Shown here piece after piece: positions 14,917 through 63,640 of a stretch of 64,000 nt of DNA. The notes under the pieces were generated by a model. That model made no database searches and was not told the origin of the DNA. It saw nothing but the letters and a program-made list of their open reading frames with translations. The position numbers and the translations under genes are program-made. Within the stretch, counting starts at the first letter, position 1. Each line of letters starts with the position of its first letter. This DNA is from Erodium maritimum (taxonomy: Eukaryota > Streptophyta > Magnoliopsida > Geraniales > Geraniaceae). The DNA lies in contig OY997592.1 in assembly GCA_963921825.1 (NCBI GenBank), positions 65,306,336-65,370,335 on the forward strand, read 5' to 3'.

Positions 14917-14953
14917 TTAATAATAATGTAATTTTCCACCTCAATATCCTAGG

Positions 14954-15527
14954 TAGGGGTGGGCATTGGGTGGTTAAGCACCCAATGGAACTTTTTACGA
15001 ACCCAATCCGATATTACCGGTTTGACATATTTTGGAACCAGCCTCAACTCATAAACCATTTTTTTTTACAGTGAAACTAACTAGTTCACTAACCGGTTGG
15101 TTAGTGGTTTTAACCAACCAACCACTTTACTACATGTAAGTACAAATTTAGATACCAATAAGCATACACATATTTCTATTTCAAGCCAAAACATATTACT
15201 ATATTCTCTAAAACAAAAGAAAAATTACATATAAGTCATCGTATTCTATGTTAGCAATCCGTGTAACAAAAAAGAGTGCTCTTAGGTCATTCATCTATAT
15301 CAGATAAGTGGTTATTATGAAGCCACATGTATATGATGAACCGTACCGGTTTGGTTGGTTAACCGATGGTTTGGCGCTTCAAGAACCGACAACCAACCGT
15401 TAACTTTCTGGTTCGATCGTCAAGAACCCGCAACCAACCGTTAACTTTCCGGTTTCGGGTTTTTCGGTGCGGTTTGCGGTTGGTGGTGGTTGGTTTTAGC
15501 GGTTTCGATTTTTTTTGCCCACCCCTA
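14954..15527. mobile_element. hAT-type miniature element, TAGGGGTG family
   Basis: Perfect 12-bp terminal inverted repeats TAGGGGTGGGCA / TGCCCACCCCTA enclose 574 bp of non-coding sequence rich in AACCGGTT-type words. It is flanked by an exact 8-bp duplication, ATCCTAGG (14946-14953 and 15528-15535). An 8-bp duplication is diagnostic of hAT transposition. It is inserted within the left inverted end of the surrounding Mutator-like element, so it arrived later. Confidence 0.9.
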
Positions 15528-16035
15528 ATCCTAGGGTTTTCATCACCTCAATATCCTAACTTTCGTTTGTGTCACCTTAATACCCTAAAATAATATTTCC
15601 TAAAATAATATTTATTTCACATTAGCAATTTCCATCCATTTTTGGATGAAAAATGGTCATGTGCATAACACCTGACCTTAATTTTCTTTTAAATTCCATT
15701 TTTACCCTTTATGTGTTTTAACCTCACACAACCTTATCTCTTTTAATCTCTCCTCAAACCTCTCTCTTAAGAAATATTTCTCAACCACAAAACATAACTC
15801 CTCAGCCATAGAGGTAACTCCTCCACCCACCTCTACCGTCGCCCTCCACCGTCGAGCTCGTCCTCATTTTTCCACAACAGCCTGAGGCCACGGCTAGAAC
15901 GAGACCAGAAGAAGGGGTGAAACCAAACACCCTCTTTCTCACGCCCTAAATCTCGATTTCGATCCTCTACAATGGCCAGATCTGGATGAGTTGCAGGTTC
16001 CCAAATTTCACACCCCAAATCTCGACGTCGTCGCT

Positions 16036-16415
16036 CACTACACCAGCTTTTTACTTCTGCGACTAGGCACTTTGTATGTAGTCATAGAAGTTTATTTCCT
16101 CTACGACTACATTTAATGTAGTCGCAGAGGTAATAACCTCTACGACCACATTACATGTAGTCGTAGAAGATATATGCCTCTACGACCACATTACATGTAG
16201 TCGTAGAGGATATATGCCTCTACGACTACATTCTGATGTAGTCATAGAGGCATATATTCCTCTACGACTACACTTAACGTGGTCGTAGAGGTATACATGC
16301 CTCTACGACTACATCGAATCATAGTCGTAGAGGATATATTCTTCTACCACAAACATATATGTAGTCGTAGGGGTATACATGCTTCTACGACTACATTTCT
16401 CATTCCGTCTTAGAG
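16036..16415. repeat. CACTA left subterminal repeat array
   Basis: About eight inverted pairs of the 12-bp motif CTACGACTACAT and its complement, separated by 15-25 bp AT-rich spacers such as ATATATGCCT. In En/Spm these subterminal motifs are the binding sites of the TNPA-type protein and are needed for excision; the role here is inferred from the family. Confidence 0.9.
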
Positions 16416-16961
16416 GTAATAACGTCTTTAATTCCCACCAACTTGCCATTACATTCCCTACCAAACTCTTTCTTCTCTCTCAAAACATTCATTCCTCTAA
16501 AAAATCTGCAGAAATTTTCTCCCTCTCAAAAAACCTCTCAACCCAACATTTCTTCTTCTTTACTCAAGGTTCCTTTATATGATCAATCTACTTCCAAACA
16601 AATCATGACGTCAAGAAACTCGTTAATGGTATGCTATATATATACTTCATTATATTTTTATAGATATATTCTAGTTTGTGGAATAATTTTATTTATTTAT
16701 GTATAGTACTATGTATATTTGATTTACAATATGCATGACTTAATTAACTAATTAATTAGTTTATATATGTATATACTCATTTTGAAGAATGTATTTTAGT
16801 TTTTTTGGAAGATATAATTTTATCATGTATATATGGTTTGTTAATATTCATCTAAAATATTTAAATTAATTTTAATTAATATTTGTATAATATACTCATT
16901 TTGATGAGTATATATTTGTTTTGTGTGGAAGAATTTATTTTTGATTTATATATATGCCTAG

Positions 16962-19444
16962 ATGGATAGAAGTTGGATGAAGTTGCCAAGAAAGGATCCA
17001 AGGCATGTGAAAGGTATTTTGGGGTTTATCGAGCATGTCATAGTTAATGGTCAAAAATTCGGTGTGGATGATCACTTTCGGTGTCCATGTCGAAATTGTG
17101 CGAATGGCGGTTGGTCGAAAATCAATGAATTGATCGATCATTTAAGTAGTAAAGGGATTAGTATTATGAGAAATTACCAAATATGGCAGTATCACGGGGA
17201 AGCACACCTCATGCCTACTGAAGCAGAATCTAGATTGATAGATATGCAGGAGATGGCTAGATATCATGAGGCATCATCATCCGGTCCTAATAGTTATATT
17301 ATTAATAATGAGCCTTCATCATCCGTTGATTACGATGCAACAAGGGAGTATGTTGAAAATGCGTTCCCTTACCGTGACACGGTTGAGCGGGAAGATATGG
17401 TTGATTTTGATGAGTACGATATTGATGAGACGGTTGCAAGGGAAGATGCAGACAAGTACAGGAGATTATTGAGTGTGTATAAAACACCGTTGTACGAGGG
17501 ATGCACTGGTTCCGATAGATTGACCACCATTATGGAGTTGATGTCCTATAAAGAAAAATACTAAGTGTCGAATAACGCGTTTGACGAAATGTGTACAATG
17601 AATAGGAAAAAATTTCCTCGTCCGAACACGTATCCAAAATCGTTTGCTGATGCGCAAAAAGTTGTGAAGGACGTTGGGTTGGGTTATGAAACATATGATG
17701 CTTGTGAAAATAGTTGTTGTTTATACTACGCTGAAAATCTACATTTGAAAGAATGTCCTATTTGTGAAAAACCTCGGTACGATGGGAGAGGGAGGGCGAA
17801 GAAAACCGTTAGGCACTTCTCCATCACAAAACAGTTGCAAAAGTTGTATAGCGCACCTGACATTGCAAAGAAAATGAAGTGGCACGCGGAAAGGGCAGTC
17901 AATCCTGACATTTTGAGGCATCCAGCTGATGGTGAAGCTTGGATTGAGTTCGACAGGTTACATCCTAGATTTGGCAGTGAGAAACGTAATGTGCGTCTAG
18001 CAGTAGCCACAGACGGGTTTTGTCCATTTGGTGCAAGTGTCGTGCCTTATAGCATGTGGCCCGTTGTTGTGATTCCTTACAATTTGCCCCCGGACATGTG
18101 CATGCAGAAAGAGTTTAACATCTTATCATTGCTGATATCAGGTGAGTAGCCTAGAAAATGTTTTAATATCATGTTGCGTATTATTAATTATTTGTTCTGA
18201 CATAATTTTGAATTTAACATATATATATTATCATCAATGAATATTAGGACCGAAGTCGCCTGGAAAATGTTTGAATAACCTGATGAGACCGTTGATGGAT
18301 GAGCTCCGCATGTTGTGGGATAATGGGGTAGTGACGTTTGATGTGTCCGTTAATCGGTCATTCAAGATGCGAGTCGTAGTACTGTGGACCATTAGCGACT
18401 TCCCAGGGCTCGGGATGTTGGGGGGAATTCAGACTAAGGGTTACTTGGCATGCCCGATATGCTTGGATGACCTGGATTCTCGTCACAGCCACAACAGGAC
18501 GTACTACTACGGGGCGCGAAAGGACTTGCCGCTGGATGATAAACGTCGCATGGATAAGAAAAATTTTGACGGAAAAAGGGAGATGAAAGTCAACAAGCCC
18601 GCACGTTCAGGTCAAGAAGTGTACGACCTCGTTACGAGTGGAACCTACCCCGTACTGTCATTGCATCCAAAATTTCAAAAAAAAATCAGTTAGGTCATGT
18701 TGGACACATAAGTCGATTTTCTGGGATCTCCCGTATTGGCATACATTGGGGACAAGGCACGCATTGGACGTGATGCACATTGAAAAAAATGTATGTGACA
18801 ATATTCTTGGGACGCTGTTGAATTTGACAGGAAAGACTAAGGATGATTTGAAAGCCAGGAAATCGTGGAAAACGAATGGTGTGCACAGGGATTTATGGCC
18901 TTCTGTGCTGCGCGGGAAGACTTACCTACCATATGCAGGATACACGGTTAAGCCAGAGAAGCTTGAGGAAGTGCTGGAAGAGCTTTCATCAGTACGTTTT
19001 CCATCGGGCTATGCAGGAGGCCTAAAAAACAAGATCAACATAAAGGACAAGAAGTTTTACGGACTTAAAACTCACGACTGCCACGTTTTGCTGCAGTGTA
19101 TACTTCCTATCATAATACGTCCATATGTGGCACCAAAAGTGGCTACAGTGATATGCGACCTTGCCGATTTCTTCAAAACCCTTTGTTCACGTGAGTTGTC
19201 AAAGAACCGGGTTATGCAGTTGAAGACAGAGATTGTTGACATAATGTGCAGGTTAGAGATGATATTTCCTCCACCGTTCCACACTATAATGCTGCATTTA
19301 TGCAAACACCTCCCAGATCAAGTCCTTCAAACGGGTCCTGTACAGTATACTTGGATGTTTCCCATTGAAAGATACATAAATATACGTGTAAGTAATTATT
19401 AATGTATATATATATATATGTGTGTGTATTTTACTTGCATGTAT

Positions 19445-19486
<42 letters not shown>

Positions 19487-20365
19487 GCAGAGAACTTGGG
19501 TACTATAAATCTTGGGTACGCAACTTCCGTTACCCCGAAGGTTGCATCGCGGAAGCATACATTCTTCATCAATGTTCGACGCATATGAATTTATATCTCA
19601 ATAACAGAGTTGTGAACACAAGCAATAATATCGACCCCGCGTTAGTCAGTTGGAACATTTCAGTGTATGATGAAACAGTGAAGCCGTTACGGCCTACATG
19701 GGCACAACAGTTGAGCGTATCGGAAATCGCACTTGCACATTGGACCGTGATGACAAACTGTGATGAAGCTGACAAAGCGTACAAATCTTTTACAACGATG
19801 TACACCAATGTGTTTGGCAACAACACCTCTATACAACATCGAATGGCTACATTTTACACGACATTCAAGTGCACTGTAAGCTATATATATATATGTGTGT
19901 GTGTGTGTGTTATATATGTAAATTTATAATTTTAATGTGTTCATTCATCATTCATTCATATATATATGTTCTAACAGATGACGCCTTATTGGCAAAACGG
20001 AGAATATAAAGGAGCAGAAATGATTTTCAATGGTGTCCTATCCCACTTTGTCTATAAACTATGTGACGTCAACGGTGTCAAATTCCTTTGTGAGGCTCAA
20101 GACAAAGGAAGAACCACACAAAACAGTGGTGTCATGCTTGAGACCGACTCTGATGGGACCTTATATGGTGTTTTGGAACAAGTTATTAACCTTATATACG
20201 AACAGAGGTTGTCGGTGGTGGTGTTCAAATGTCGATGGTTCGACTCAAAGAAGGTGAAACTGAATCGTGGAATGATATCTATACCGACCAACACCAATTG
20301 TTACAAGCATGACCCATATTGCCTCGCGAGCTCTGCACAAAAGGTTTTTCATCAATAGTTATGCA

Positions 20366-20412
<47 letters not shown>

Positions 20413-20823
20413 CTATAATATTATGATTCTACGTTTCAATTATTTCTCTTGTAGATATTCTACGTTGACGATCCCAAACTGGGTGGACATTACAAGGTCG
20501 TGAACAAGGTAGCGCCTCGGGGAAAATACAGTGATTTTTCAGTAGACACTATTCCGAGGCCATCGTACCAGGTTACTCATCCTTATCAAGAGCCAAGGCC
20601 ATACATTCAACCCGTGGATGCGATGTTGGAATTCGAGGACGCCGACATCGACGAGGACGACAATGACGATGCTCATGCCATGATGATCGATGACGACGAT
20701 GTCAACGAAGAAGAAGATTTTTTCTTGAATGACGACGAAGAGATATTATCTGATGAAGAAAGCCTCAACGATGAGGAAGAATTTAATGACGAGATATTAT
20801 CTGAGTCTGAAGAAGAGGATTAG
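16962..20823 (+). pseudogene. TNP2-like CACTA transposase (multi-exon, damaged)
   Basis: Exons by eye: 16962-18141, 18248-19387, 19491-19875, 19978-20343 and 20455-20823. The N-terminus (MDRSWMKLPR, then FRCPCRNCANGG) is the transposase-associated zinc-binding domain. The middle (ECPICEKPRYDGRGR, later WPVVVIPYNLPPDMCM, DFPGLGMLGGIQTKGYLACP and HALDVMHIEKNV) is the Transposase_21 catalytic region. DUF4218 follows (HLCKHLPDQV, WMFPIERY, RNFRYPEGCIAEAYIL), then DUF4216 (VVFKCRWFDS). The C-terminus is a long acidic Asp/Glu tail. Damage: an in-frame TAA at 17562-17564, a one-base shift in the A-run near 18677-18685, and a frame break between exons 2 and 3. Length and order match TNP2/TNPD proteins. 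The product would cut at the TIRs in the nucleus. Confidence 0.9.
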
Positions 20824-20989
20824 GCATAGAGCATTTTAGTGATTTTTCCGCATTTTCATCGTTTTGAACACCGACATAACTAGTTTATGTAAAATTTGAT
20901 CATCAATAATTGTTTTAGGTTGGTATCAATATCCCGAGCTTGAAATTTTGAATTATCTTAACCCCGACCTCAAAATTTAATTTTAATTT

Positions 20990-21141
20990 TATTTTGCAAC
21001 TACGACTACATTACAATGTAGTCGTAGAGGATAGGTAGACAGAGAGCATTAAAATCTGCACCGGAAAGTTGCACGCCGTGCAGCAAGTGGTGCACTGCTT
21101 GTTTGCAACTACGACTACATTACAATGTAGTCGTAGAGGAT
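20990..21141. promoter_or_regulatory. Internal copies of the CACTA subterminal motif
   Basis: Two identical 32-bp palindromic modules (CTACGACTACAT, 4-bp gap, ATGTAGTCGTAG) at about 21000-21030 and 21110-21140, each preceded by GCAA, 75 bp apart. They sit after the first gene and just before the presumed leader of the second. In En/Spm the TNPA protein binds this class of motif; here the position suggests a possible regulatory site for the TNP1-like gene. Confidence 0.75.
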
Positions 21142-21235
21142 TTTTAGGGCATTAGGTTTTACTTAGCTTTATTTTCCCATTTCAGAGGTTACCATTCAGA
21201 CCTTTCTCTCCCGTTTCTCTCGCCCTTGTCAAAAC

Positions 21236-21606
21236 CCTACTTCTCCGACCTCAACCTCAGCCCGAGCTCGTCCTCGCCGTGGCCGTGACAGCCCCAGCTC
21301 GTCCTCGCCGTGGCCGTGACAGCCCGAGCTCGTCCTCGTCGTGGCTGTGACAGCCTCGATTTCGTCCTCGCCGTGGCCGTGACAGCCCGACCTCGGTCCA
21401 ACCTCCGTCCACGCCAGCTCCGTCCGACCTCCATCCACGCCAGCACCGTCCAGGCCAGCACCGTCCAAGCCAGCTCCGTCCAATCTAGGGCCGTGACAGC
21501 CCGACCTCGGTCCAACCTCCGTCCACGCCAGCTCCGTCCGACCTCCATCCACGCCAGCACCGTCCAGGCCAGCACCGTCCAAGCCAGCTCCGTCCAATCT
21601 AGGGCC
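21236..21606. repeat. GC-rich tandem repeats in the second gene's leader
   Basis: Four copies of a roughly 31-bp unit (GAGCTCGTCCTCGCCGTGG followed by CCGTGACAGCC) are followed by a 115-bp unit present twice in near-perfect tandem (about 21378-21492 and 21493-21606). The long unit itself contains smaller CAGCACCGTCCA repeats. Open frames across it on both strands are repeat artefacts. It likely forms the 5' untranslated exon of the TNP1-like gene, whose coding exon opens after an AG at 23411-23412. Confidence 0.8.
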
Positions 21607-21639
21607 GTTTCTCGCGAGCTCCGTCCAAGCTAAGAGAAT

Positions 21640-23412
21640 TTTTATCTATTTGCCTATGTTGTTTTTGCTGTAGTTTCTATATTGTTGTTGCTAAGAGAAT
21701 TGTTTCATAACAATTAGTTCGATTGGGTACAACCGTACAAAAAAAATCAGTAGGTTTGGGTACAACCGTACAAAAAAATCAGTAGGTTTGGGTACAACCT
21801 TATATAGTTTACTCATAATTCTAGTTCTAGTTCGATTGGGTACAACCGTACAAAAAAAAATCAGTACTAACTTTTTGAAATGTATAACTTTCTTGATGTA
21901 TTAGTCATTACGATTAAACTTGTGGAACCATGGCCTTAAAATAAGTTGATACTAGCTTACGGTAAGAAAACATCAAAATTGAACTAGATTTTACTATCTT
22001 AAATAAGATAGGATATGACAGACTTAACTTAAAGATTTAAGCTCATTAGTAACTGGTGGATACCAATTCGATTGATGATATACTGTAATGGGTGGCTTTG
22101 GAAAATCAGATTTTAAGGTCCAATTTTATCTGGGTTCGTTCGATTCGTAGTTGATGTGACCTAGAATAGTTTGTGCATGCCTGCATTTCACTTCCATTAT
22201 GAATTAATTAGGAGTATCTTCAAGCTGTTTTTGGTTTGGGTTCGTTCGGGTCTCTTAGTTTCTATATGAAAACCTTATTATTGGTAGGTTTGTGGTATTG
22301 TGGAGGAGAGGTTTTGTTTTGTTTGATGGGTATTGCTGGCTAAATTTAGATCTTTAGGTGTAACTCGACTACTATTACGATCAGTTGAAACTTCAGAATT
22401 TTTGGTGCAATAGGGTAATATCATTTTCAATAGTTGTGGCATGTCGAATTTTCATTTTATTGGCAATTCATCAGCTGTTCTGAATTAGCGATTTCATTTA
22501 AGCTGTGTGTGTAGAGTCAAAGTTCTTATCACAAGTGATCTCTTAGTTGTTCATCATGAAGGTCGAGCTTATCTATATTTTACACTTTCATGCATAGGTT
22601 GCTTTGGTTAGCTTACATATGGAATGATTAAAATTCCTCTTACAAATTTGAGTTTCATATACACTATACACTATACACACATATTAGCCTCTCATAACTT
22701 AATGGCTTCTAAGCTACTCAACCCATAATGGATACTATACAGCTAGAATGTTTTCAAATTCCCTTCTAATTTAGTAGCTTTCAACAGAACAGCGTACCTT
22801 TCTTATTGTGAACAAGTAGTACAGCTAGAATGTTTTCAAATTCCCTTCTAATTTAGTAACTTAAAGACTTAACTTTTGATAAGTGGAGTGTTCTTTTTTG
22901 TTCTAACTAATAGATTCATGTTCGTGGGCAGACTCATACTCACATCCTTGGATAATTATATGTATTGTTTTACACGTTAGTTTTCATAAGAAATAGAATT
23001 GTTATAGTTTCTACCAATCTTTTTTGTTGTTTAATCTTAACGAGTAATTTCTAACCCGAATAAATGTTGTTATTAGATGAAGTATGTGCTTAGGTTATAT
23101 TTCTAGAACTTTAAAAACCTAGTGGAGAGAACGTGTTACAGTTGAATCGGGGGATAATTAAAGAGACTCATAAACTTTGATAAACTAATATGTATTAATA
23201 ATAACATTTAGGGAATTATTTGTCATAGCTAGCATACTAATTATATACACAGTGGGATGTTGAAATGTTTTATACCAAAATTTGGATTTTAAAAAGTTGA
23301 TTTTAACAATTGATTTGTTAGTTGATATTATAGCATGTATAATTTCGGAAATGAGCTGAAAATCTTAGGTGCATATGATCAATATAAAGATTTTATGAAA
23401 CTGTGTATGCAG
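21640..23412 (+). other. Presumed leader intron of the TNP1-like gene
   Basis: AT-rich, non-coding. It contains a short tandem repeat near 21718-21860 (GGGTACAACCGTACAAAAAA, three to four copies) and a 43-bp direct duplication (GCTAGAATGTTTTCAAATTC core) at about 22743 and 22826. It ends in ATGCAG directly before the coding exon, consistent with a 3' splice site. Confidence 0.5.
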
Positions 23413-23413
23413 G

Positions 23414-25481
23414 ATGGTAGCAAAAAGAAGAATTAAAATGACAGAGGAGGAAGAGGGGACTACCCCGACCTCTACCGCTGCCCCGGCCCTAGCCGCTACC
23501 CAATCCGCTGCGCCCACCCCCTCCCCCATTTTGGTCAGGGGACTGCCGACACCAGCCATCCCAACTCGTCTGCCTCGCAATGGCCAGGGCCCGATGCTTT
23601 GATTCTGCCGTCAACCGCTTCGACCTCACAGCACGGAGGCCCGAGTCCGGGCGTGGCGGGAAGCTCGTCTACAGCGGGCGACGTTTGGTACGTCCGTAAG
23701 GCGGCCAAAAAACGGAAGGCTACCAAACGTTCCACCCCGTTGAGTATAAACTACGACGAGAGCGGGAACGACATCGGGAGCGATAGCGGGCCTGACTCAG
23801 ACTTAGACTCCGACTCCGACTCCGAGGAGGCCGTTGACGCCACTGTCAGTAGTGAGCCCGTCGACGCCACTCCGAACCCTGAGGTCGCCTCTGGTAAGAA
23901 AAAGCGGGGTGGTAAAAGGGGGTGGGTGTCCATTCGTAAGACAAACGATTATGTACAGAAACACGGAAGGTTAGAACTCGTCTACGACCCCGTGAGGAAG
24001 ACTGTGACCTGTCCGGGTCACCCGACAATAGATAGGGCGCGAGTGACCCGAGATATCGGGTCCATCATTCGGTCGCACTTGCCCATGTTGAGTAAAACAT
24101 GGGACGAGATTGTTGTGACAGATCGAGATATGGTAAAACGGAACCTCAAGGTACTTTTTTTCCACGTAAGCGTTGTTTATTTTTGTTTTTAATCGTTCCC
24201 GCATTAATTTCTCCACGTTTTGTTTGCAGGGGATGTACTTGTACAAGGAGGATGACAACCCGCTATGTGATTGGATCGAGAGTGAATTCCGCAATCTGTT
24301 CACAGACTGGAAGTCCAAGATCAACCGAGCGCGCAAAGCCAGAATGGCTGAAAAGAAGACCATATATATCACCCCTCCTTACGAGTTCGAACAACGTCTG
24401 GATGAGTGGGCCTTTCTTTGCGACCACTTCGATTCCGACAAGTTCAAGGTAAATGATATTGTTCATGATTAGATGTTTATATATATATTGTTCTAATTAT
24501 TCAATTAATTAGTATGATTTTTGTAAAAATGCCAGCTCAAGTCGCAGAAGGCATCTGACGCTCGGAAGAAAGTGAAGACCGTGCAAAGGGGCGGATCCTG
24601 CTCGATTGCAGGCCACTCTGAGAAGATTGCGAACAAATGCCCCAACAACCCGACGCCGCTCCTGGATGCATGTATGCATGTCTTCCCGCCAAACGACAAG
24701 AAAAAGGCAAACCGCATTAAAGGGGTTACTATTTTTTGTCCCGAACTTTATGTTTGCTCATTATATTTAATATTTATATTTAACATTTTGTTAATTATCT
24801 TCATTGTCGTTTAATAATTAGTAATTACATACCATTCATTTCTCTAAATCCTGGTTTGTTTCTGCGCAGAAAAAGATCGTCGCTGCGATCAGGGAAGTGC
24901 GACGGTCGGCCGATATCTCTACGCCTGTCCCAGTACTGGTTCAGGCCGAGGCACTAGCTGCCAAGCTGAACAAACCGAGGAAGGGCAGCCAGCAGCCAGG
25001 ATGCGGCAGGAGAGTCGTCCTCCCGACGCCGAAGTCGATGGCTACGTCCTCGACCTCCGCTGCTTCCGCCGAAGTCTCTCAACAAATAGAAGAGAGAGTG
25101 CAGGCGCGAGTGATAGAGCAGATGGCCAAGGCACGAGAGGAGCTGGTGAACCAATTCCGAGAAGAAAATGAGCAGATGACCAAGGCACAAGAGGAGCTGG
25201 CGAACAAACTCCGAGAAGAGAAGGAGCAGATGACCAGGGCACAGGAGGAGCTGGCGAACAAACTCAAGAAAGAGGTGGAACAACGGGAGCAGATGGAAGC
25301 TAGGAACGCGGCGATGGAAGCTAAGAATGCGACGATGGAGGAGAACCTAAAGAAGATAAACGACTATCTAAGCCGCTTGCCAGGAGTTATCCCGCCGGTA
25401 CAACAAAGTCCACTTAAGGACGGTTCGGGAAAGGATGGCTCGGGTAAGGATGGCTCCGATGGGTCCAAATTTAGACTATGA
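23414..25481 (+). CDS. TNP1/TNPA-like CACTA protein (Transposase_24 type)
   Basis: Exons by eye: 23414-24150 (with a frame break between about 23500 and 23600), 24230-24448, 24536-24724 and 24870-25481. The start ATG lies directly after an AG acceptor. Order: Ser/Ala/Pro-rich N-terminus; basic patch (KKRKATKR); acidic Asp/Ser run (DSDLDSDSDSEE); a conserved core (GRLELVYDPVRKTVTCPGHP, then LSKTWDEIV and CDWIESEFRNLF); the Transposase_24 signature (KSQKASDARK, then SIAGHSEKIA and TPLLDACMHVF); and a coiled coil with three copies of EQMTKAQEELANKLREE, ending KDGSGKDGSG. Family members bind the subterminal repeats and help TNP2 bring the ends together. The first-exon shift may be a mutation or an unrecognised small intron. 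Confidence 0.85.
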
Positions 25482-25654
25482 TGAACAATTATAAACAATT
25501 GTGATGAATATTTGTCGCGATATACATTTTGAACTACAGCGTGTATTTATATCTACTGTGTGTATATATATATAATTACTGTAGATATTAAGGTGTACGT
25601 TTAATTTGTTGCAGGTTTTACACGTTTGGGTGCACATTTTATAAATATTTTTTT

Positions 25655-26097
25655 TCGAAATCTTCTTTTAACCTCTACAACTACATATCAATCATCTGCG
25701 ACAATATTAGAGAATTGTAGAGGTTATAGGGTAAATATCCTCTAAGACTGCATCAATGTAGTCGTAGAGAATAAATATCCTCTAAGACTACATCCATATA
25801 GTCGTAGAGGATATCTATCCTCTAAAACAACATCATGTAGTCGTAGAGGAGAAATATCTTCTAAGACTACATCCATGTAGTCGTAGAGGATATTTATTCT
25901 CTAAGACAACATTCATGTAGTCGTAGAGGAGAAATATCCTCTACGACTACATTATGTAGTCGTAGATGATTTTTTTTTTCAATTAGTACGACTAAAAATA
26001 TTGTAGTCGTAGAGGAAAGGGATCTTACTTCTATGACACCTTAACTAACTTCTGCGACTCTTTTCTGTAGTCATAGAAGTTATAAACCCTTGTAGTG
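25655..26097. repeat. CACTA right subterminal repeat array
   Basis: About nine motif copies, mostly ATGTAGTCGTAGAGGA paired with TCCTCTAAGACTACAT, spaced by AT-rich linkers, then the terminal GTTATAAACCCTTGTAGTG. Compared with the left array more left half-motifs carry AAGACTACAT instead of ACGACTACAT, so the two ends are not identical. Confidence 0.9.
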
Positions 26098-26100
26098 GCT

Positions 26101-26345
26101 TCCCAGATCTGGAACGGGTTGCAGGTTCAACGTTGTCGCTCGTCGCCCTGAGTGGGTAGCAGTGGTCGTCGTCGTCTCTGCTCTGGTCCAGGTTGGGGAA
26201 ATCGATGCTCAGATGGTCAGGTTGATGGTCGGGGAGGTGGCTGAGATTAGGTCTGCGATTGTGAATGAGATGAACGAGTTGGGGGAGACGGCGTTGTTCA
26301 CAGCGGCGGAGAATGGGCATCTCGATGTGGTGAAGGAGTTGTTGG
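26101..26345 (+). pseudogene. Ankyrin-repeat gene fragment (ITN1-like)
   Basis: The plus-strand frame contains EIRSAIVNEMNELGETALFT followed by AAENGHLDVVKELL. NELGETALFTAAxxGHLDVVKELL is the first ankyrin repeat of plant ITN1/ACD6-type membrane proteins. Only one repeat remains, there is no convincing start, and the frame runs into AT-rich filler. It lies inside the Mutator-like element next to the CACTA insertion, so it is most simply a captured exon fragment. Confidence 0.7.
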
Positions 26346-26720
26346 GGTCAAATAAAGAATTAATGAAAAAATTGATTTTAAAAAAGAAAAGAATTTTAAA
26401 AGTGATTTTTTAAAATAAAATGATTTTTATAATAAAAAAAATGATTTTTTGAAATAAAAACTGATTTTTAAGAGTAAAAATTGATTTTTAAAATACAAAT
26501 TAATTTTACAAAATAGAATCTAAGTTTTATAAAATAAAAATATGATTTTAAAAATAAAAATAAATAAAAACTGAATTAATAAAAATTAAATTAAATCTAT
26601 TTTTTAAAGAATAAATTCTGATTTTTGTAAAATATAAACCTGATTTTTTGAAATAAAATATAATTTTTATAAAACATAAAACTGATTTTTTTTAAAAAAT
26701 AAATAAAAAGACTTTTTGAA
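26346..26720. repeat. AT-rich low-complexity tract
   Basis: Degenerate tandem of GATTTTTNAAATAAAA-type words, about 15-25 bp per unit. Non-coding filler between the ankyrin fragment and the right end of the Mutator-like element. Confidence 0.7.
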
Positions 26721-27099
26721 AACCAATGACATGGGTTTGAAGATTTGACTGTGGGTGAGGGGTATTATGGATTTTTTTAAGTGTTTGGATGGAAAATGGA
26801 TGGAAAATAGACTGAAACTAATGGTAGGTATCAAAGTGACACAAAATGGCATACTAGGGTATTGAGGTGCCATAAATGAAAGTTAGGGTATTGAGGTGAA
26901 AATAACTTATAGTTAAGGTATTGAGGTGACAATAACCCTTAATAATAAAACTCTACCAACAATAAACTGGATGGATATGAAGCAAGTCGTTTTCTCTCTC
27001 AATTGTCAAAATCTCCTTATTCTCGAGAAATCCTATCTCATTTATGGAGTCCTCTATCCCTGTTGTCGACTTGATTATCGTTAGTCCTCTCGGCGGTCT

Positions 27100-29535: not shown

Positions 29536-32500
29536 ATGCATTTGAGCGAGAACGAGGGGATTGAGGGCAACACCTTCGTCGTCACCGGCGGCCTCGGCTT
29601 CGTCGGCGCCGCTCTCTGCTGCGAGCTGCTGCGGAGAGGAGCTTACCAGGTTCGGGCCTTTGACCTACGAGCCACCTCTCCCTGGTCTGCCGATCTCCAG
29701 TCCCGTGGTGTCAAGCTCATTCAAGGTCTCTTCACTCATCGCTTAGCTAAAATCTTTTCCGCTTACCTGATCTCAACTGTAAATGCTTATTCACCGATTA
29801 TATAGACTTCGATTCTAATTTTTTTTGATCATTCATGAAGTTAAATTTGGATCCGTTTGTCATGTTTCCTTTTGATTAATTGAGATTTGTTTGATTAATG
29901 AATCAATCAGTGCAGCTTTAATTTGGACAATTGATGTTCCTGACCATCGCCATGGAGTAATCTTTAGCGTATCATCAGTTGTAGAATTCTTCGCCAAACT
30001 TCTATAGTTGTTGATTTGGCATGCTAAGAACATATGATGACACTCCTTGATAACCTCAGCTTTAAATTGGACAATTGGAGTTTGAATATATCCTACTTTT
30101 ATTTATTTATTTTTAGGAGTCACAAGAATTTATTATACATTTGCATGTAACATTCGGAAGCGGATAAATGACACTTTAGCAAGTGCTGGAGTGAATTTAC
30201 TAATGTTCAAAAGGATATCACCACCTTTGCTGTTTTGAGTGCTTTGGCTGATGTTCTTAAGTTGGCATAAATTTAATGAAGTGATCCTAGAAGATGCCTT
30301 ATATTCCGAATTGAATCAGAGATCCTGTATAAATCTATGCCTAGCAACAGGTAGGATCAGTGAGTCTATGTTTCTCTTGCCCGGAAATGTTTTTTGTTCA
30401 AGTCAACCAAGTTATTATTTAACTTTCTTCTGATGCTTCCCAAAGGAACTTTTCAATGATAGAGGTGATAAACCAAATTATTGTGAAGTCTTGATTTCAT
30501 CATCTTTTCCTCTACTTGTGATTTTGTGCCCTGTATTTTTAACATACCTTTGCGCTCAATCATATAGCCTATTAAATAAAGCTTTGAGATTTCATGTTTA
30601 TTTGAACTGCAGCATGATACATTGTAGGCTATGCAACTTATTCTGTTACATGATGACAGGGGATGTTAGTCACAGAGAAGATGTTGGAAGAGCTCTGCGA
30701 GGTGCCCACTGTGTTTTCCACCTTGCTTCATTTGGCATGTCAGGGAAAGAGATGCTCCAATCTGGCCGTGTGGATGAGGTCAACATAAATGGAACCTGCC
30801 ATGTCTTGGAAGCTTGCATTGAGTTTGAGATCACAAGGCTTATCTATGTGAGCACATATAATGTTGTGTTTGGGGGAAAGGAGATTGTGAACGGCAATGA
30901 AAGGTTGCCATATTTTCCTATTGACGATCATGTAGACTCATATGGGCGCAGTAAATCATTTGCTGAGCAATTAGTTCTGAAGAGCAACAATCGTCCTTTT
31001 AAGTAAGTAATTTCAATCCAAAGATATTTATTTTTCCTCCCCATATCACAAAGAAGCAACTGTGACTTATCCATGTGTTAAGATGTGCCTTCACCAAATA
31101 AAATGTACCTACCAAACATAAAATATAGGGTTAATTGCAAAAAACTTACCATGTACTATGCAAATCCTTACCTGCCTCGAAGTATCGTTGCATTTCCTTA
31201 CTGTGTAGAAATTTTAAATTGTACTGTTCATTAGATCAGACGGAAAACCCAACTTAAAACCCCACTTGGCCAGCATGTGAGGCGGTTTTTTTTAATGATG
31301 CCGAAGCTAACCTTCAATGAGTATAGAAGACCATATCTTCTCCGTGTGTTGCAGCTATGGTGAGGACATGGTCTTCTATCCTCATTGAAGGTTAGTTTCG
31401 ACATTATTCAAATAATTCGCCTCAGACACCATGCATATGGGGCTTTAGTGGTGTTTTCTGTTGAATGTAACAAACATGCAATGATACTTCGAGGAGTGTA
31501 AGGAATTTCAGAACTTGCATAGTATAGGGTAAATTTTTGCAACTATCCCTAAAGTATATATTTGGACAGCTATGTACTTTTCTATTTATTTATTTTTTGC
31601 CCTTTTCTAGCTTTTGCTTCTTCCACTGGCTATGGATGGTTTACGTGTTTTTTCTTTCTATGCTGAATAGGAAGAAGGCTGGAAAATGTCTTTATACATG
31701 TGCAATTCGCCCAGCTGCTATCTATGGACCAGGCGAAGACAGACACTTTCCAAGGATCATGTCCCTCACCAAGTTAGGTCTCCTGCCATTCAGAATTGGT
31801 GACCAGAGTATTAAATCAGACTGGATTTATGTGGACAACCTTGTACTTGCTCTAATATTGGCAAGCATGGGACTTTTGGATGACATTCCAGGGAGAACTA
31901 AACACCCCGTCGCTGCTGGCCAAGCATACTTCGTATCTGATGGTTATTATCCTATTTTAACTTAGAATTTATGCTCATCAATGAACTCAAGATCAATCTT
32001 TTAAGTGGAATAAGGAGAATATTTTAGACATTTTAACCATTGTGTTTTCGTATTCCAGGGTCTCCAGTCAACACTTTTGAATTCATCCGGCCGCTGCTAA
32101 GAAGTTTGGGTTATGATGTGCCAAAGCCTTCCTTAGCCCTCAATCATGCTCTTATTTTGGGCAAGGTTTTTGAAACTGTCTATACATTCTTATATCCGTT
32201 GTTGAATCAGTGTTGGCTTCCTCAGCCATTGATCCTTCCCGCTGAAGTATTCAAGGTAGTTCAATAATTCATCTTCAGATCTATAGAGCTCATATATAGT
32301 ATTGTTGCTTCCTTGAAATAAAATTGAAGGTTTTAAACATTTGCACGAATAAACTAGTGATAAGGAAAACAATGTCATGTATAAGTATGGCTATCATCTT
32401 CAATTCATTAAGATCCTATTCTACTTTAAGACTTGTTCCAGTCACCAGCTTCATACAAATCCAGTCTTTCCTACCTTGTTAGGCCCAATTGCCTATTGGG

Positions 32501-33533
32501 TGGTGGTACAGGTACAAGCATGGGGATAGGGCATGCTACTAATTTGGTATGCAATATTGCAGTATTGTAGGGGTTAGGCTTGGCTGTTTATATATTTTGG
32601 TTCGTGTTACAATTGGGAGTTTTGATACTTGCAAGTGTTTTATATATTTATGGGACAATCTCACTCAGTTACCCTTAAGTATGCACCTTTCCCAATCAAC
32701 TATCCCTAAGTTCAAAAACTTTTTGACAACCTCCCTAAGTTTTTTTAACCCAAGCCCGTCAACTTTTTGAGTGTGAAATGATGGAAATACCCTTATTTAT
32801 ATTTATTTTTACACCAAAAAGTTGACGGAAATGGGGTAAAATGAAACTAAAAAAACTAAGGGAGTTGTCAAAAACTTTTCAAACTTAGGGGTACTTAGCG
32901 CAGAATGGTGCATACTTAGGGGTAGCTGAGTGAGATTATCCCTATATTTTTTTACACCCAAATAGAATAATAATTATATGGGATTCTTTAACCTCCAACT
33001 AAGTTGGGAACTTGCATAGTATGAGATGTGTTGCACATGACCAGGAACCCTGAAAACTCAGGACTCTTTGCTGAATGTATAGTGTGCTTTGGCAGGTTGG
33101 AGTTACCCATTATTTCTCATTCCTTAAAGCTAGAGAAGAGCTTGGGTACATGCCAATGGTGAGTCCTGAAGAGGGCATGGGAGCAACCATCTCATACTGG
33201 CAGGAGAAGGAGAAAAGGACTATAAAAGGTCCTGGAATATTCATGTGGTTGTTCTGTGTGCTTGGAATGATTCAGTTGTTTTGTGCTGCTTTCTTACCAC
33301 CAGTAGGACCTCTGGTATTCTTGAGAGCGATAAGCCTCTTTATATTCAGGTCAATTTGGGCGGTAAGGCTGGCGTACATCCTCGCTGCTGCAGCTCATGT
33401 AGGTGAAAGTGCGTATGCATGGCGATTGGCAAAGAGGGTGGATCCTGACAATTCTAGCAGATGGTTTTGGCAGACCTTTCTTCTTGGGTTTTTCTCTCTG
33501 CGCTTTTTGTTGAAGAAAGCGAAGCAATCATAG
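29536..33533 (+). CDS. SDR42E/3beta-HSD-like short-chain dehydrogenase
   Basis: Exons by eye: 29536-29725, 30660-31002, 31671-31942, 32059-32255 and 33096-33533, all with GT/AG introns and consistent phases, giving 479 codons plus TAG. An N-terminal Rossmann fold binds NAD(P): VVTGGLGFVGAALCCELLRR, then GDVSHREDV. The catalytic motif is YGRSK (YxxxK), preceded by YVSTYNVVFGG. IRPAAIYGPGEDRH and KSDWIYVDNLVLA are extended-SDR landmarks. The C-terminal 100 residues hold hydrophobic segments (MWLFCVLGMIQLFCAAF and later), suggesting membrane anchoring, and end in a basic LLKKAKQS tail. It resembles Arabidopsis At2g33630 and the animal SDR42E1 family, annotated as 3beta-hydroxysteroid dehydrogenase/isomerase-like; the true substrate is unknown. 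Introns 2 and 4 carry miniature elements. Confidence 0.93.
31128..31549. mobile_element. Foldback miniature element in SDR intron 2
   Basis: Inverted ends GGGTTAATTGCAAAAA / TTTTTGCAACTATCCC, with a second inverted block further in (CCTCGAAGTATCGTTGCAT / ATGCAATGATACTTCGAGG) and a third around CCTTCAATGAG. It is flanked by TAAAATATA (31119-31127) and TAAAGTATA (31550-31558), a 9-bp duplication with one mismatch. Length 422 bp, no coding capacity. The 9-bp duplication suggests a Mutator-like MITE. Confidence 0.8.
32652..32942. mobile_element. Foldback miniature element in SDR intron 4
   Basis: Ends GGGACAATCTCACTCAGTTA and TAGCTGAGTGAGATTATCCC are inverted copies. The whole 291 bp folds on itself (CTTAAGTATGCACC pairs with GGTGCATACTTAG). 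Flanks are TATATTTAT (32643-32651) and TATATTTTT (32943-32951), a 9-bp duplication with one mismatch. Mutator-like MITE by duplication length; lies between exons 4 and 5 of the SDR gene. Confidence 0.85.
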
Positions 33534-41148: not shown

Positions 41149-41887
41149 TAGGGGTGTGCATGGTCGATTAAGCCGTCCATGAGCCTCAATCCACCACCAA
41201 ACCACAAGTCCCTTGTCTGATAAAAGTTCAGACTGGGATTGCAACCACAATCGACAAATCGTTGATTTTCTGACCACCACGGTTTTTGGTCGGTTTGGCG
41301 GATAATCCAACCACCCACCATGAACATGAACAAACTCATAACATAAAGAAAATGGGAAAGAAAGATGGATGAAACTCAAATAGAAGATAGAAGCGCACAT
41401 GTATCAACAAGAGAAAAATATAGAAAGAGGCGAGTCTAGAGATAAATTGTGTCTGTGTGGCTGTAGAAGTGAAAATGTAACTAGGTATGGTTAGTCTAAC
41501 AACTTGATTTTAATGGGCTATCAGAAAATGGGTTGCATTGATTAAATTTTGGGCTTGCAAGTTGTAAGACCAGTATAATAATAAAAAAAATTAACAAACA
41601 AGCCCTAGCCCATTCATGAACTGCTTCTTCAACCTCTCAACGTCAATGCAGAAGACAAAAGTTGCAGAGACGTCGGGCGTTGGAAAAGTTGATATAGTTT
41701 GTGGGCCTGTCGGTTTCGGTCAACCACCGGTGTGGCATTTTGGGACCGGTCATCGACCATCTTGTCTCCGGTTCAGCGTTTTTGACACCAAGACCACGCC
41801 GGAAACCTCTGGTTCCGGTTTTTTCCGGTCCCGATAGCGGTCGGGTTGGTCGGAATCCACCGGTGCGGACTTTTTTGCCCACCCCTA
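41149..41887. mobile_element. hAT-type miniature element, TAGGGGTG family
   Basis: Ends TAGGGGTGTGCA and TGCCCACCCCTA, enclosing 739 bp, with an exact 8-bp duplication TTTGTACT at 41141-41148 and 41888-41895. The interior is rich in CCGGT/ACCGG words like the copy at 14954 and has no transposase. It lies upstream of the AHL gene. Confidence 0.92.
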
Positions 41888-51599: not shown

Positions 51600-52385
51600 T
51601 TTATATATTAATTGATTATAAAGATATATTTTTTTATCTTTTACATAAAAACTAGATAGATAGATATTAATAAGCTTTAGATTTTCTTCTTCTTTTATAT
51701 AAAACTAGAGAATTTGATAAATATTAATAATTTTTTGAGTTTTCATCTTTTATATACAAGCTAGATAATTTGATAAATATAAATAATGCTTATATTTTTC
51801 ATCTTTTATATCAAATTAGATCATTTGATAAATATTAAGTATGTTTAGATTACTTTAAAAAAAATTATGTTTAGATTTGTCATCTTTTATATAAAAAATA
51901 GATAAATATTAATAATTTTTATATTTTTTATCTTTTATATAAAAAATAAATAATTCGGTAAATATTAATAATTTTTAGATTTTACATATTTTATATAAAA
52001 ACTGTATAATTCGGTAAATATTAATAATTTTTAGATTTTACATCTTTTATATAAAAAAAATGGATAATTTGATAAATTTTACATTTTCCTCTTTAATATA
52101 AAAACTAGATAAATTTTAATTTTTTTTTAAAATTTTCCTTTTTTTTTATATAAAAACTGGATATTTTTATAAATATTAATAAATTTTTGAGTTTTCATAT
52201 TTTACATACAAATTAGACAATTTAATAATTTTTCATATTTTATACAAAAAATAGATAATGTGATAAATATACTTTTCGAGTTTTCATATTTATATACAAA
52301 CTAGATAATTTGATATTTAAAAAAGATCATATTTTATACAAAAACTTGATAATTTGATAAATATTAATAATTTTTAGATTTCCAA
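51600..52385. repeat. AT minisatellite, about 55-70 bp unit
   Basis: About eleven degenerate copies of a unit containing CATCTTTTATATAAAAACTA then GATAATTTGATAAATATTAA and TTTTTAGATT. Units vary in length by indels. Lies about 150 bp upstream of the PsbP-domain gene. Confidence 0.8.
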
Positions 52386-59159: not shown

Positions 59160-60815
59160 ATGCAAGGAAGTGAAAATATGGGTGTCGGAAAAGAAAAGGT
59201 ATAAACCATCCTTCTTCAATTTTAATTACGTTCTTCGTCACAATTTGAAACTGATGCATTACTGTTCTTATAATTGAATTTTTGAAAGTTCTTATTGTTC
59301 ACAAGGATTTATACTCCTCAGAGTCCCTTTCTAACAAATTATCAACTTCAACTTCATACTGATGCATTACTGTTCTAAGGGTTATATACATGAGTTACTA
59401 TATTTACACAGAGATTTGAATGTATGAACCAGAACTTCACATGCTACAGGGTTAGAAACTATAATATATTTTGCTTATACACTTCAATTCAATGTTCATT
59501 CTTACAAATTATAATTTTTCTATAACATTACTTGTCAGTATAATTTTATCAAAAATTAACTGATATGATTTGCTTTTTTGTGTCCATCTCACTACAATGT
59601 TAACTTTTATAGCATTAAACTACAGTATAAGGTTTCAATTCTTGTTCATTTAACTTTTATGAACTGTTTCACATTTTTATGAACAACTCTTGTTTCAAAT
59701 CTTTATCCTCTTATTATTATTATGGTTTCATTTTAATTTTAAATTCGTTTATGAAATTTTGTTGTGAAGTCATGTTTTTTATCCTCTTTTAGTATTAGTG
59801 TATTATCCTTGTCTATACTTTTTTCCTAACTTTGTGTTATGCTTTCATATAACCAGCCAATCATTGACCTTGATGATGGAGCTGGAGCAACATCAGCATC
59901 TGGAGCATCAACACCATCTGGAGCAGTAACAACAGTATCATCTGAAGCAGCTCCAGTTGTAGCTACAGCAGCATCTGAAGCTGCATGTAAGTTAACTACA
60001 TCCTCTCGGCATAAATCTCTTGCTTGGAAACACTTTACTAGGGTGGTAGTAAATAATGAGAAGTTTTCTCAGTGTAATTACTGTCCTAAAACGTATCGTG
60101 CTGATTCTAATCGATATGGAACTAGTACCATGTTAGGTCATATTAAATTGTGTCCTAAAAATCCTGCTAATAATAGGTCACAACAACAATTGGCCTTTAC
60201 CCCCATAGATGAAAACAAAGAGGCATCACTGACATGTTGGCATTTCGATCAAGATGCTTGTCGAAATGCACTTACCAAGATGTTAGTGATGGATGAATTT
60301 CCCTTCAGCTTTGTGGAAGGCAATGGGTTCAAAAAATTCATCGAAGTTGCATGCCCCCACTTTAAGTTGCATACTAGGGTAACTTATATGACAAATATGT
60401 TTGCTTTGTATGAAACCGAGAAATTGAAGTTGCATACTTACTTTAGGTCTAGTTCCCTTACGGTATCCTTGACCACTGACACGTGGACTAGTTGTCAACA
60501 AATCAACTACATGTGTCTAACTGCCCATTTCATCGATGATGATTGGAAGTTACACAAAAAAATTATAAATTTCACACCCATTGGTTCACATACGGGTGTG
60601 GATATTTGTAAGGCAATAAGTGGTTGTCTGTTTGCATGGGGTCTTGACAAGATCATGACTATTACTGTGGATAACGCTTCAGCAAATGACAAGGCCATAG
60701 AACAACTTAGCACTAGGATGAACTCGATGTCTACAACTGTGTTGGATGGTAAATTTATGCATATGCGTTGTATTGCTCATATTTTGAATCTGATTGTCAG
60801 TGATGGGATAGGGCA
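59160..60815 (+). pseudogene. hAT transposase (BED zinc finger), interrupted
   Basis: Exon 1 is 59160-59198 (MQGSENMGVGKEK) and exon 2 is 59857-60815, joined by a GT/AG intron in phase 0. Ser/Thr/Ala-rich start, then a BED zinc finger (WKHFTRVVVNNEKFSQCNYC, then CPKTYRADSNRYG with TMLGHIKLC). The DUF4413/hAT core region follows: FPFSFVEGNGFKKFIEVACP, SLTTDTWTSCQQINYMCLTA, HTGVDICKAISGCLFAWGLD, TITVDNASANDKAIEQL and MRCIAHILNLIVSDG. This is the RICESLEEPER/DAYSLEEPER-like hAT family. The frame is cut after VSDGIG by an LTR-type sequence at 60816; the dimerisation half is not seen in the window. It could be a domesticated gene or an active transposon's gene, but this copy is broken. Confidence 0.88.
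59199..59856 (+). other. Intron of the hAT transposase gene
   Basis: AT-rich 658-bp intron between GTATAAACC and ATATAACCAG. No embedded element recognised. Confidence 0.65.
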
Positions 60816-61003
60816 TGTCACGCCCCAATTTCAGTAAACCGAACTCGGGACGCGAACGTTTAAAAACATACAAACACTTGAAACCTGTTTTCATTGAATC
60901 ACTTTAAAATATCAGTTTAGTTCAACAAAATAATTATTACAACTTAAAACACGTCCCAACAAGTGGACCAAAAACATGGTATCCGTCGCTAGACTCTGAG
61001 CCC
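60816..61003. mobile_element. LTR-type insertion edge, same family as 7168
   Basis: Starts TGTCACGCCCCAATTTC inside the hAT transposase exon. Shares TGTCACGCCCCAA, then CCGAACTCGGGACGCGA against CCGGACTCGAGACGTGA, with the LTR at 7168. Orientation implies a minus-strand element whose 3' LTR, or a solo LTR, begins here. The sequence is soon interrupted by foldback elements, and the other edge is not in the window. The candidate 5-bp target is GGGCA (60811-60815). Confidence 0.65.
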
Positions 61004-61778: not shown

Positions 61779-63142
61779 GAAGCAATCAGGTGCGAACCCC
61801 TTCTAAAATGCGAACCTGCGAACTCAACTACAACATGACACGTGTCGCGCTTAAAAATGCTAATCTTTTTTTTCCCCACCAAGTTTATTAATTTAATTTT
61901 TCCCGCTTCGTTTCAACTCCAATTTAATTTTTTTTGCGCCAATATTCTTATTTTTTCAAGAGCTTTCTAACAAGTAGTGGATTGCATATATTTTGATGTG
62001 TTTTTGAATACGTGTGTGGATTTGTGAATATGAGTGCGAAAAAGTGTGATGTGTTTTGCAAATTTAGTGTATATGGTTTGCGGATTTAGTGTATATGGTT
62101 TGCAGATTTATTGTATATGGTTTGCGGATTTAGTGTATATGGTTTGCGAATTTAGTGTGTTTTGCAAATTTAGTGTAAATGGTTTGCGGATTTAGTGTAT
62201 ATGGTTTGCGAATTTAGTGTATATGGTTTGCGAATTTAGTATGGGAAAAAACATATCTCATGTAACTTAACATTGCTCAACTCATGTATGAAACTGGTTC
62301 ACTATGTTTCCTCTTGCAAGTTGCAACAACCTACTTGGACCATGCCATGTAGTTTTTTTTAAAGATACCAAAATACACTTGTCATGTTTATTTAACTAAT
62401 CTGTGAGGAATTACATATATTATATACATATCTATTAATCCAATTTGACCATCTGGAAGTGTGAAATATAAATTCAAGAAGCCAAATGTTCATTTTAACA
62501 CGTGATCCATTGGTTCTTCGTCAACATCGTAAGTTTACAAAGTGCCTTGACATACATGCACCTCTAACTCATTTTTGAAATAAAAACTTATTTGATATTA
62601 TTGTTATAACCCAACCGTGTTTACTTAATCAACCTACAAAATCCTTGTTCTCCAAGAAAGATATGAACATGGCAAGTGATCTAGCACTAAATTCGCAAGT
62701 GATATTGCATACAAAAGTGTGAAAATTACACTAAATTCACAAACCATATACACTAAATCCGCAAACCATATACACTAAATCCGCAAACCATATACACTGA
62801 ATTTGCAAAACACACTAAATTCGCAAACCATATACACTAAATCCGCAAACCATATACACTAAATTTGCAAAAACACATCACACTTTTCGCACTCATATTC
62901 ACACATCCACACACGTATTCAAGAACACATCAAAATATATGCAATCCACTACTTGTTAGAAAGCTCTAGAAAAAATAAGAATATTGGCGCAAGAAAAAAT
63001 GAAATCGGAGTTGAAACGAAACGGGAAAAATCGAATTAGTAAACTTAATTATAACAAAAAGGGGGGGCATTTTCCGAGCGCGACACATGGCGCAATCTGG
63101 TTGAGTTCGCATGTTCACACCGTAATTCATGGTTCGCACCTG
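61779..63142. mobile_element. Foldback element B, arms about 430-460 bp
   Basis: Ends GGAAGCAATCAGGTGCGAAC and GTTCGCACCTGAATGCTCTCC. The left arm (61779-62236) and right arm (about 62715-63142) are inverted copies over almost their whole length, including GCGCCAATATTCTTATTTTT, AAGCTTTCTAACAAGTAGTGG-like stretches and arrays of GTATATGGTTTGCGGATTTA. The central 480 bp is non-repetitive and non-coding. Short frames at 62984-63196 and 63045-63254 are repeat artefacts. Inserted in TA repeats. Confidence 0.85.
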
Positions 63143-63156
63143 AATGCTCTCCTATA

Positions 63157-63640
63157 TATATATATAGGGAAGCAATCACGTGCGAACCCCTCTTAAAATG
63201 CGAACCTGCGAACTCAACAACAACATGACACGTGTCGCGCTTAGAAATTTTCATCTTTTTTCCCCCACCAAGTTTATTAATTTAATTTTTCCCGCTTCGT
63301 TTCAACTCCGATTTAATTGTTTTTTGCGCCAATATTCTTATTTTTTTCAAGAGCTTTCTAACAAGTAGTGGATTGCATATATTTTGATGTGTTTTTGAAT
63401 ACATGTGTGGATGTGTGAATATGAGAGCGAAAAAGTGTGATGTGTTTTGCAAATTTAGTGTATATGGTTTACGGATTTAGTGTATATGTTTTGCGGATTT
63501 AATGTATATGGTTTGCGGATTTAGTGTGTTTTACAAATTTAGTGTATATGGTTTGCGGATTTAGTGTATATGGTTTGCAGATTTAGTGTATATGGTTTGC
63601 GAACCATATACACTAAATTTAGTGTATATGACTATGGTGT
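63157..63640. mobile_element. Foldback element C, single-arm or collapsed copy
   Basis: Starts GGGAAGCAATCACGTGCGAA and follows the left arm of element B nearly base for base to the GTATATGGTTTGCGGATTTA array. It ends in a hairpin at about 63585-63618 with a perfect 15-bp stem (TTAGTGTATATGGTT, loop TGCG). The second arm is almost entirely missing. Confidence 0.75.

Follow-up and report, generated by a model that had tools for sequence, protein, structure and literature searches.

A probable Pack-MULE-like element of Erodium maritimum with foldback-style ends and with hAT and CACTA insertions

The window analysed here, a stretch of 64,000 nucleotides from the Erodium maritimum genome (contig OY997592.1, positions 65,306,336 to 65,370,335 of the forward strand), contains an outer transposable element that carries two others, a hAT-type element and a CACTA element. 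The boundaries and target-site duplications of all three can be seen, and sibling copies of the outer element and of the hAT element are present elsewhere in the genome. The outer element is very probably an old, non-autonomous, Pack-MULE-like member of the Mutator-like elements (MULEs), with foldback-style ends, which was later hit by the other two. A first-pass annotation of the window had described a 'three-deep' nest. There are in fact two levels, since the hAT and CACTA elements lie side by side as direct guests of the outer element, and their mutual order is therefore not readable. The other structural claims of that annotation, the outer limits included, are borne out.

Ends and target-site duplication of the outer element

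The outer element extends from position 14926 to position 26938 of the window. Exact copies of the 9-bp sequence TTAATAATA, to which no strand is assigned, lie directly outside its ends at 14917-14925 and 26939-26947, and the duplication previously put forward as possible is therefore exact. Once both guests are removed, each together with one copy of its own duplication, 1,366 bp remain. The left terminal inverted repeat, on the + strand, is split by the hAT element between its first and second block. Its outermost part (14926-14953), starting ATGTAATTTTCCACCTCAATATCC, aligns with sibling ends of the form GGGTAA... and finishes with the 8 bases of one hAT duplication copy. The remainder (15536-15720, + strand, the inner limit being approximate) comprises blocks 2 and 3 and a CCATCCATTTTTGGATG...GGTCATGTG motif, and is common to the siblings. 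The right terminal inverted repeat (26780-26938, - strand) has three clear blocks of about 30 bp and the end GGGTTATTGTCACCTCAATACC on the minus strand. An AT-rich degenerate array (26349-26710, + strand, limits approximate) is likewise common to the siblings. The ends of the family are of the GGGTAATTTTCACCTCAATACCC type. The left end of the window element begins ATGTAA as opposed to GGGTAA.

Taking out the guests leaves outer ends that pair as inverted repeats, as had been anticipated. The pairing covers the outermost 80-84 bases, with 77% identity in 83 columns and a score of 68. Compared in direct orientation, these ends score 27; the highest score is 38 for 200 single-base shuffles and 33 for 1,032 overlapping 200-bp pieces taken from both strands elsewhere in the window. 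The 30-bp blocks reported in the ends were recovered by TRF at 26858-26936 (period 30, 2.7 copies, 84% matches), and the tandem blocks could be aligned across six arms belonging to three elements of the family. Ends built in this way had been called unusual; that description finds no support, as a Mutator/foldback family that makes 9-bp duplications and has composite terminal repeats containing tandem blocks is on record (PMC3169594).

The duplicated sequence is not a rare word, there being five occurrences of TTAATAATA on the + strand of the window, but when the 9-mers of one 1-kb flank are paired with those of the other, just 4 of 984,064 pairs are identical, the observed one counted in, and the duplication is exact at boundaries that are fixed independently by the sibling ends. 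This bears on the idea that the two ends do not belong to one element, and are separate family members or solo ends that face each other across a chance duplication. Members of the family do nest in one another, as at place L041 described below, and the arms of the window element are 77% alike where those of seven complete siblings are 84-94% alike. The 1,366 bp left after removal of the guests nevertheless falls within the size range (1,136-1,622 bp) of the six larger complete siblings and has their layout, and unrelated ends are considered highly improbable.

The outer element thus has long terminal inverted repeats and an exact target-site duplication of the length, about 9 bp, that is characteristic of Mutator-like elements, and its terminal inverted repeats contain short tandem blocks in the manner of foldback-type elements. 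It is on these ends and on the duplication length that the element is provisionally placed in the Mutator superfamily.

The cargo and its ankyrin-repeat fragment

The middle of the element, referred to here as the cargo, is richer in GC and is divided by the CACTA insertion. Its left part (15721-16035, + strand) is absent from the siblings read and ends in GCT, the left-hand copy of the CACTA duplication. Its right part (26101-26348, + strand) contains an ankyrin-repeat fragment within an open frame at 26096-26413. In this frame Pfam identifies an Ank_2 repeat (1.6e-6, 26096-26410) and no transposase domain. The outer element had been annotated as gene-carrying and Mutator-like, and it does have the long inverted ends, the 9-bp duplication and the ankyrin fragment, although what it carries is a piece of a gene only. 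Pack-MULEs are characterised by this arrangement, in which MULE ends enclose part of a host gene and no transposase.

The cargo resembles host genes. Its protein matches five other places in the genome over 54-68 residues, with amino-acid identities of 65-82% (all 28 candidates were scored). The best of them, and the leading candidate for the parent gene, is C7:72233783-72233968, which is 82% identical over 56 residues (residues 32-87). The cargo sequence is presumably similar to that of ITN1, a plant ankyrin gene.

Eight open frames were scanned against Pfam, seven of them belonging to siblings. The one from the window is the only frame with a match, and gene capture is therefore claimed for the window copy alone. 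That most cargo in the family is not recognisable as genes would agree with a middle that is the family's own sequence, or host DNA trapped between two insertions, with no capture having taken place. This is unlikely given the ankyrin match and the five paralogous places, and also because the middles differ between sibling groups while the ends are kept.

Copies of the outer element elsewhere in the genome

The genome sequence searched amounts to 763 Mb in 40 contigs, with the window on contig 5. A search for other copies of the outer element had been proposed in the first-pass annotation. Ten other places were read, two of them (L003 and L030) met by chance beside hAT copies and eight picked by searching the genome with the right arm, a query that selects for the AT-rich array in those eight. 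Seven of the ten have both ends and a 9-bp duplication, which agrees at all nine positions in four cases, at eight in two and at six in one; the other three have no matching pair. It had also been proposed that ends found independently of each other would speak against a single element. The siblings with 9-bp duplications show instead that the ends travel together.

The seven complete siblings vary in size. The shortest described, L003 (2440-3026), is a hairpin-like element of 587 bp. Its arms agree at 93% of 276 aligned columns, and TTTAATATA flanks it on either side (9/9). L030 (139-1548) is 1,410 bp long and is bordered on both sides by TTTAAAATA (9/9). Both ends are also present in L038 and L043 (9/9), L037 and L042 (8/9) and L040 (6/9). 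Among the incomplete places, L039 has two ends without a matching duplication, and L044 has one end only and is left out of the comparisons of layout, middles and arms. L041 is a nest within the family, the outer left end of which is beyond the stretch read; its row, 621-1999, consists of the inner small element and the outer right arm, and it is counted among the ten places read and not among the complete siblings. The inner element of L041 (621-1024) is a small family member of 404 bp, apparently nested in another member, with a 7/9 duplication.

The arms of the seven complete siblings align over 103-276 columns, and their ends terminate in GGGTAA or GGGCAA. In raw counts the sibling duplications are nearly all A and T, and TTTAAWATA is found in two of the eight duplications seen. 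Independent satellite-like arrays were also considered as an origin of the ends and were ruled out by the sibling copies with both ends and duplications.

The right-arm search returned the window and 39 other places at 76-85% identity, these being the 40 scored of 5,524 candidates. Within these 40, the 39 other places match query positions 249-841 only, that is, the array and the terminal repeat, and none matches the cargo (query positions 1-248). By BLAST, between about 80 and 200 bp of the left side are common to the siblings and the window, while the right side has about 450-590 bp in common with the window, made up of the AT-rich array and the terminal repeat, in the seven copies from the right-arm search. 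L030 matches the array, with its terminal repeats matching weakly, and L003 is without the array. The sibling middles fall into groups: L037 goes with L038 (88% over 453), and L039 goes with L040 (90-95%) and L043 (92% over 322-358), while L041 and L042 have other stretches in common with L039 and L040. The only match of the window middle in this comparison is 53 bp to L038, and this is within the AT-rich array.

A BLAST search of 20 arbitrarily chosen 10-kb stretches (L009-L028) found no family member; a profile search of the same stretches gave weak matches in L020 (E 0.0016), L022 (0.11) and L009 (0.35). In the neighbourhood of hAT copies, six stretches, each about 6.6 kb long, yielded only the L003 element again (as L032), with nothing in the other five.

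It is possible, though rather doubtful, that the outer element belongs to a numerous family of foldback-type MULEs that acts as a modular capture vehicle, with kept ends, a kept AT-rich array in its larger members, an exchangeable GC-rich middle that has recombined between sibling groups, and a preference for 9-bp targets made up of A and T only.

The hAT and CACTA guests

The hAT-type element (14954-15527, + strand) is non-coding, 574 bp long and has the short inverted ends TAGGGGTGGGCA and TGCCCACCCCTA. Its exact 8-bp duplication, ATCCTAGG, is at 14946-14953 and 15528-15535, these being the two + strand occurrences of that sequence in the 64-kb window. The duplication and ends are those that define a hAT element. 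The terminal-repeat alignment of the outer element spans the insertion site; the hAT element is therefore a guest within the left terminal repeat, in agreement with its first description. There are at least 40 copies in the genome, the 39 others scored being 93-97% identical (40 scored of 977 candidates). Exact 8-bp duplications flank seven of eight copies examined, the window copy included, and L007 has none. The window copy is 2.6% from the consensus of eight close copies. The eight diverge from it by 1.6-3.0%, a range biased downwards because they are the closest matches.

A second hAT-type element of the window (41149-41887) has the ends TAGGGGTGTGCA and TGCCCACCCCTA and an exact 8-bp duplication, TTTGTACT. 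An open frame of 335 amino acids with a BED zinc finger (PF02892) at 59830-60837 might be the first part of a hAT transposase, or of a gene that derives from such a transposase.

The CACTA element of the En/Spm type (16036-26097, + strand), 10,062 bp in length, lies in the interior of the outer element, where it had been placed. It has CACTACA...TGTAGTG ends, the 3-bp duplication GCT at 16033-16035 and 26098-26100, and, at 16076-16398 and 25728-25970, subterminal repeats about 40 bp long, and together with a TNP2-type transposase these are the features of a CACTA element. The element contains pieces of the transposase gene (16962-20823, + strand) and the domains Transpos_assoc, Transposase_21, DUF4218 and DUF4216 (PF02992 at 4e-32 and 5.3e-35, PF13960, PF13952 and PF13963). 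The transposase gene is interrupted by a stop at 17562-17564 and by a change of frame between 18587 and 18693. A second gene of the element (23437-25481, + strand) is repeat-rich and coiled-coil-like, and none of the three pieces of it scanned reached a Pfam cut-off. An open frame of 132 codons crosses the CACTA insertion site, which weakly favours insertion of the CACTA element into the outer element, as such a frame could also arise by chance.

Order of insertion

It is very likely that the outer element inserted before the hAT and CACTA elements. The following history is proposed. The outer element, or a forebear of it, would have gained the piece of an ankyrin gene between its left end and the AT-rich array. 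A MURA-type transposase encoded elsewhere would then have bound the block-built terminal repeats and moved the element by cut and paste, generating the 9-bp duplication. At later times the 574-bp hAT element would have inserted into the left terminal repeat and the 10-kb CACTA element into the cargo, both generating duplications of their own and probably immobilising the outer element.

It is possible for nested elements to move as a unit, and a single copy is compatible with one or both guests having been aboard before the last move of the outer element, in which case the outer element would not have come first. The 40 places scored of 5,524 candidates include no other copy with the same cargo, either with or without the guests. 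The hAT element is 2.6% from the consensus of its eight copies while the arms of the outer element differ by 23% over 83 columns, which argues against guests being aboard early, although neither figure is a clock: the arms may have differed at insertion and the eight hAT copies are the closest ones. A 12-kb composite with a split left terminal repeat would in addition be expected to be a poor substrate for transposition. Early boarding of the guests is accordingly judged to be quite unlikely, and the order with the outer element first is preferred.

Other features of the window

Apart from the nest, the second hAT-type element and the BED zinc-finger frame, the window contains open frames at 30434-33533 that match a 3-beta-HSD-type dehydrogenase (30434-31003) and TMEM254 (33075-33530) and are likely to be ordinary host genes. 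AT-rich tandem arrays at 51630-52382 have units that measure about 56 bp and upwards. Arrays of a 22-bp unit (AGTGTATATGGTTTGCGAATTT) occur in both orientations at 62043-62240, 62727-62877 and 63434-63601.

Comparison with known elements

Each part of the nest belongs to a known kind. The two guests match the CACTA (En/Spm) and hAT superfamilies in their defining ends and duplications, and the CACTA element in its TNP2-type domains as well. Nothing sets them apart from these superfamilies that is worthy of note; the CACTA element has a broken transposase frame, and the hAT copy is a short one that does not code for protein.

The outer element is similar to the Pack-MULEs of rice, maize, tomato and Arabidopsis in being non-autonomous, with long terminal inverted repeats, a 9-bp duplication and a host-gene fragment. 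GC-rich cargo is described for Oryza MULEs (PMC4858842). The outer element differs from Pack-MULEs in the tandem blocks of about 30 bp in its terminal repeats and in the AT-rich array of about 360 bp at one end, and a recognisable gene fragment is found here only in the window copy among the copies scanned.

With regard to the ends, the closest resemblances are to foldback-like MULEs. Tm1 of root-knot nematodes, which its authors assign to Mutator and liken to foldback elements, has composite terminal inverted repeats in which the number of short tandem blocks varies, together with 9-bp duplications and short MITE-like members, to which L003 may be compared (PMC3169594). Its blocks are 13-15 bp and not about 30 bp, its ends are asymmetric 7-bp motifs where the siblings of the outer element have GGGTAA or GGGCAA on both sides, and it has no clear target consensus, whereas the duplications of the present family are, in raw counts, nearly all A and T. 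FARE of Arabidopsis belongs to a foldback group now classed with MULEs, as named in PMC4486113. The same paper describes MuTAnT of Medicago, which is like the outer family in being a foldback-like MULE with modular terminal inverted repeats (TIRs) and AT-rich targets. MuTAnT targets TA microsatellites, in contrast to the 9-mers such as TTTAAAATA that are duplicated here. MULEs with multiple tandem TIRs are reported from tomato and Arabidopsis and in small numbers from rice and maize (PMC3310237). These share repetition inside the terminal region with the outer element, and one of them is a Pack-MULE. They double whole long TIRs, while the present family repeats a 30-bp unit about three times, and five times in L003. 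Nested insertions are also familiar, being present in over a third of the coding MULEs of maize and rice (PMC3903597). The outer-element family itself may be undescribed.

Implications

The locus is a clean and readable case of serial transposon insertion, and taken by itself it is ordinary plant genome biology. It also points to a Mutator-like family with varying middles that is perhaps numerous, the right-arm search having given 5,524 first-look candidates, of which 40 were scored and many of the others may be mere AT-rich sequence. The family of the outer element, with its differing and partly exchanged middles, is the most interesting lead from this analysis. Differing middles between constant ends would let the gain and exchange of cargo be studied.
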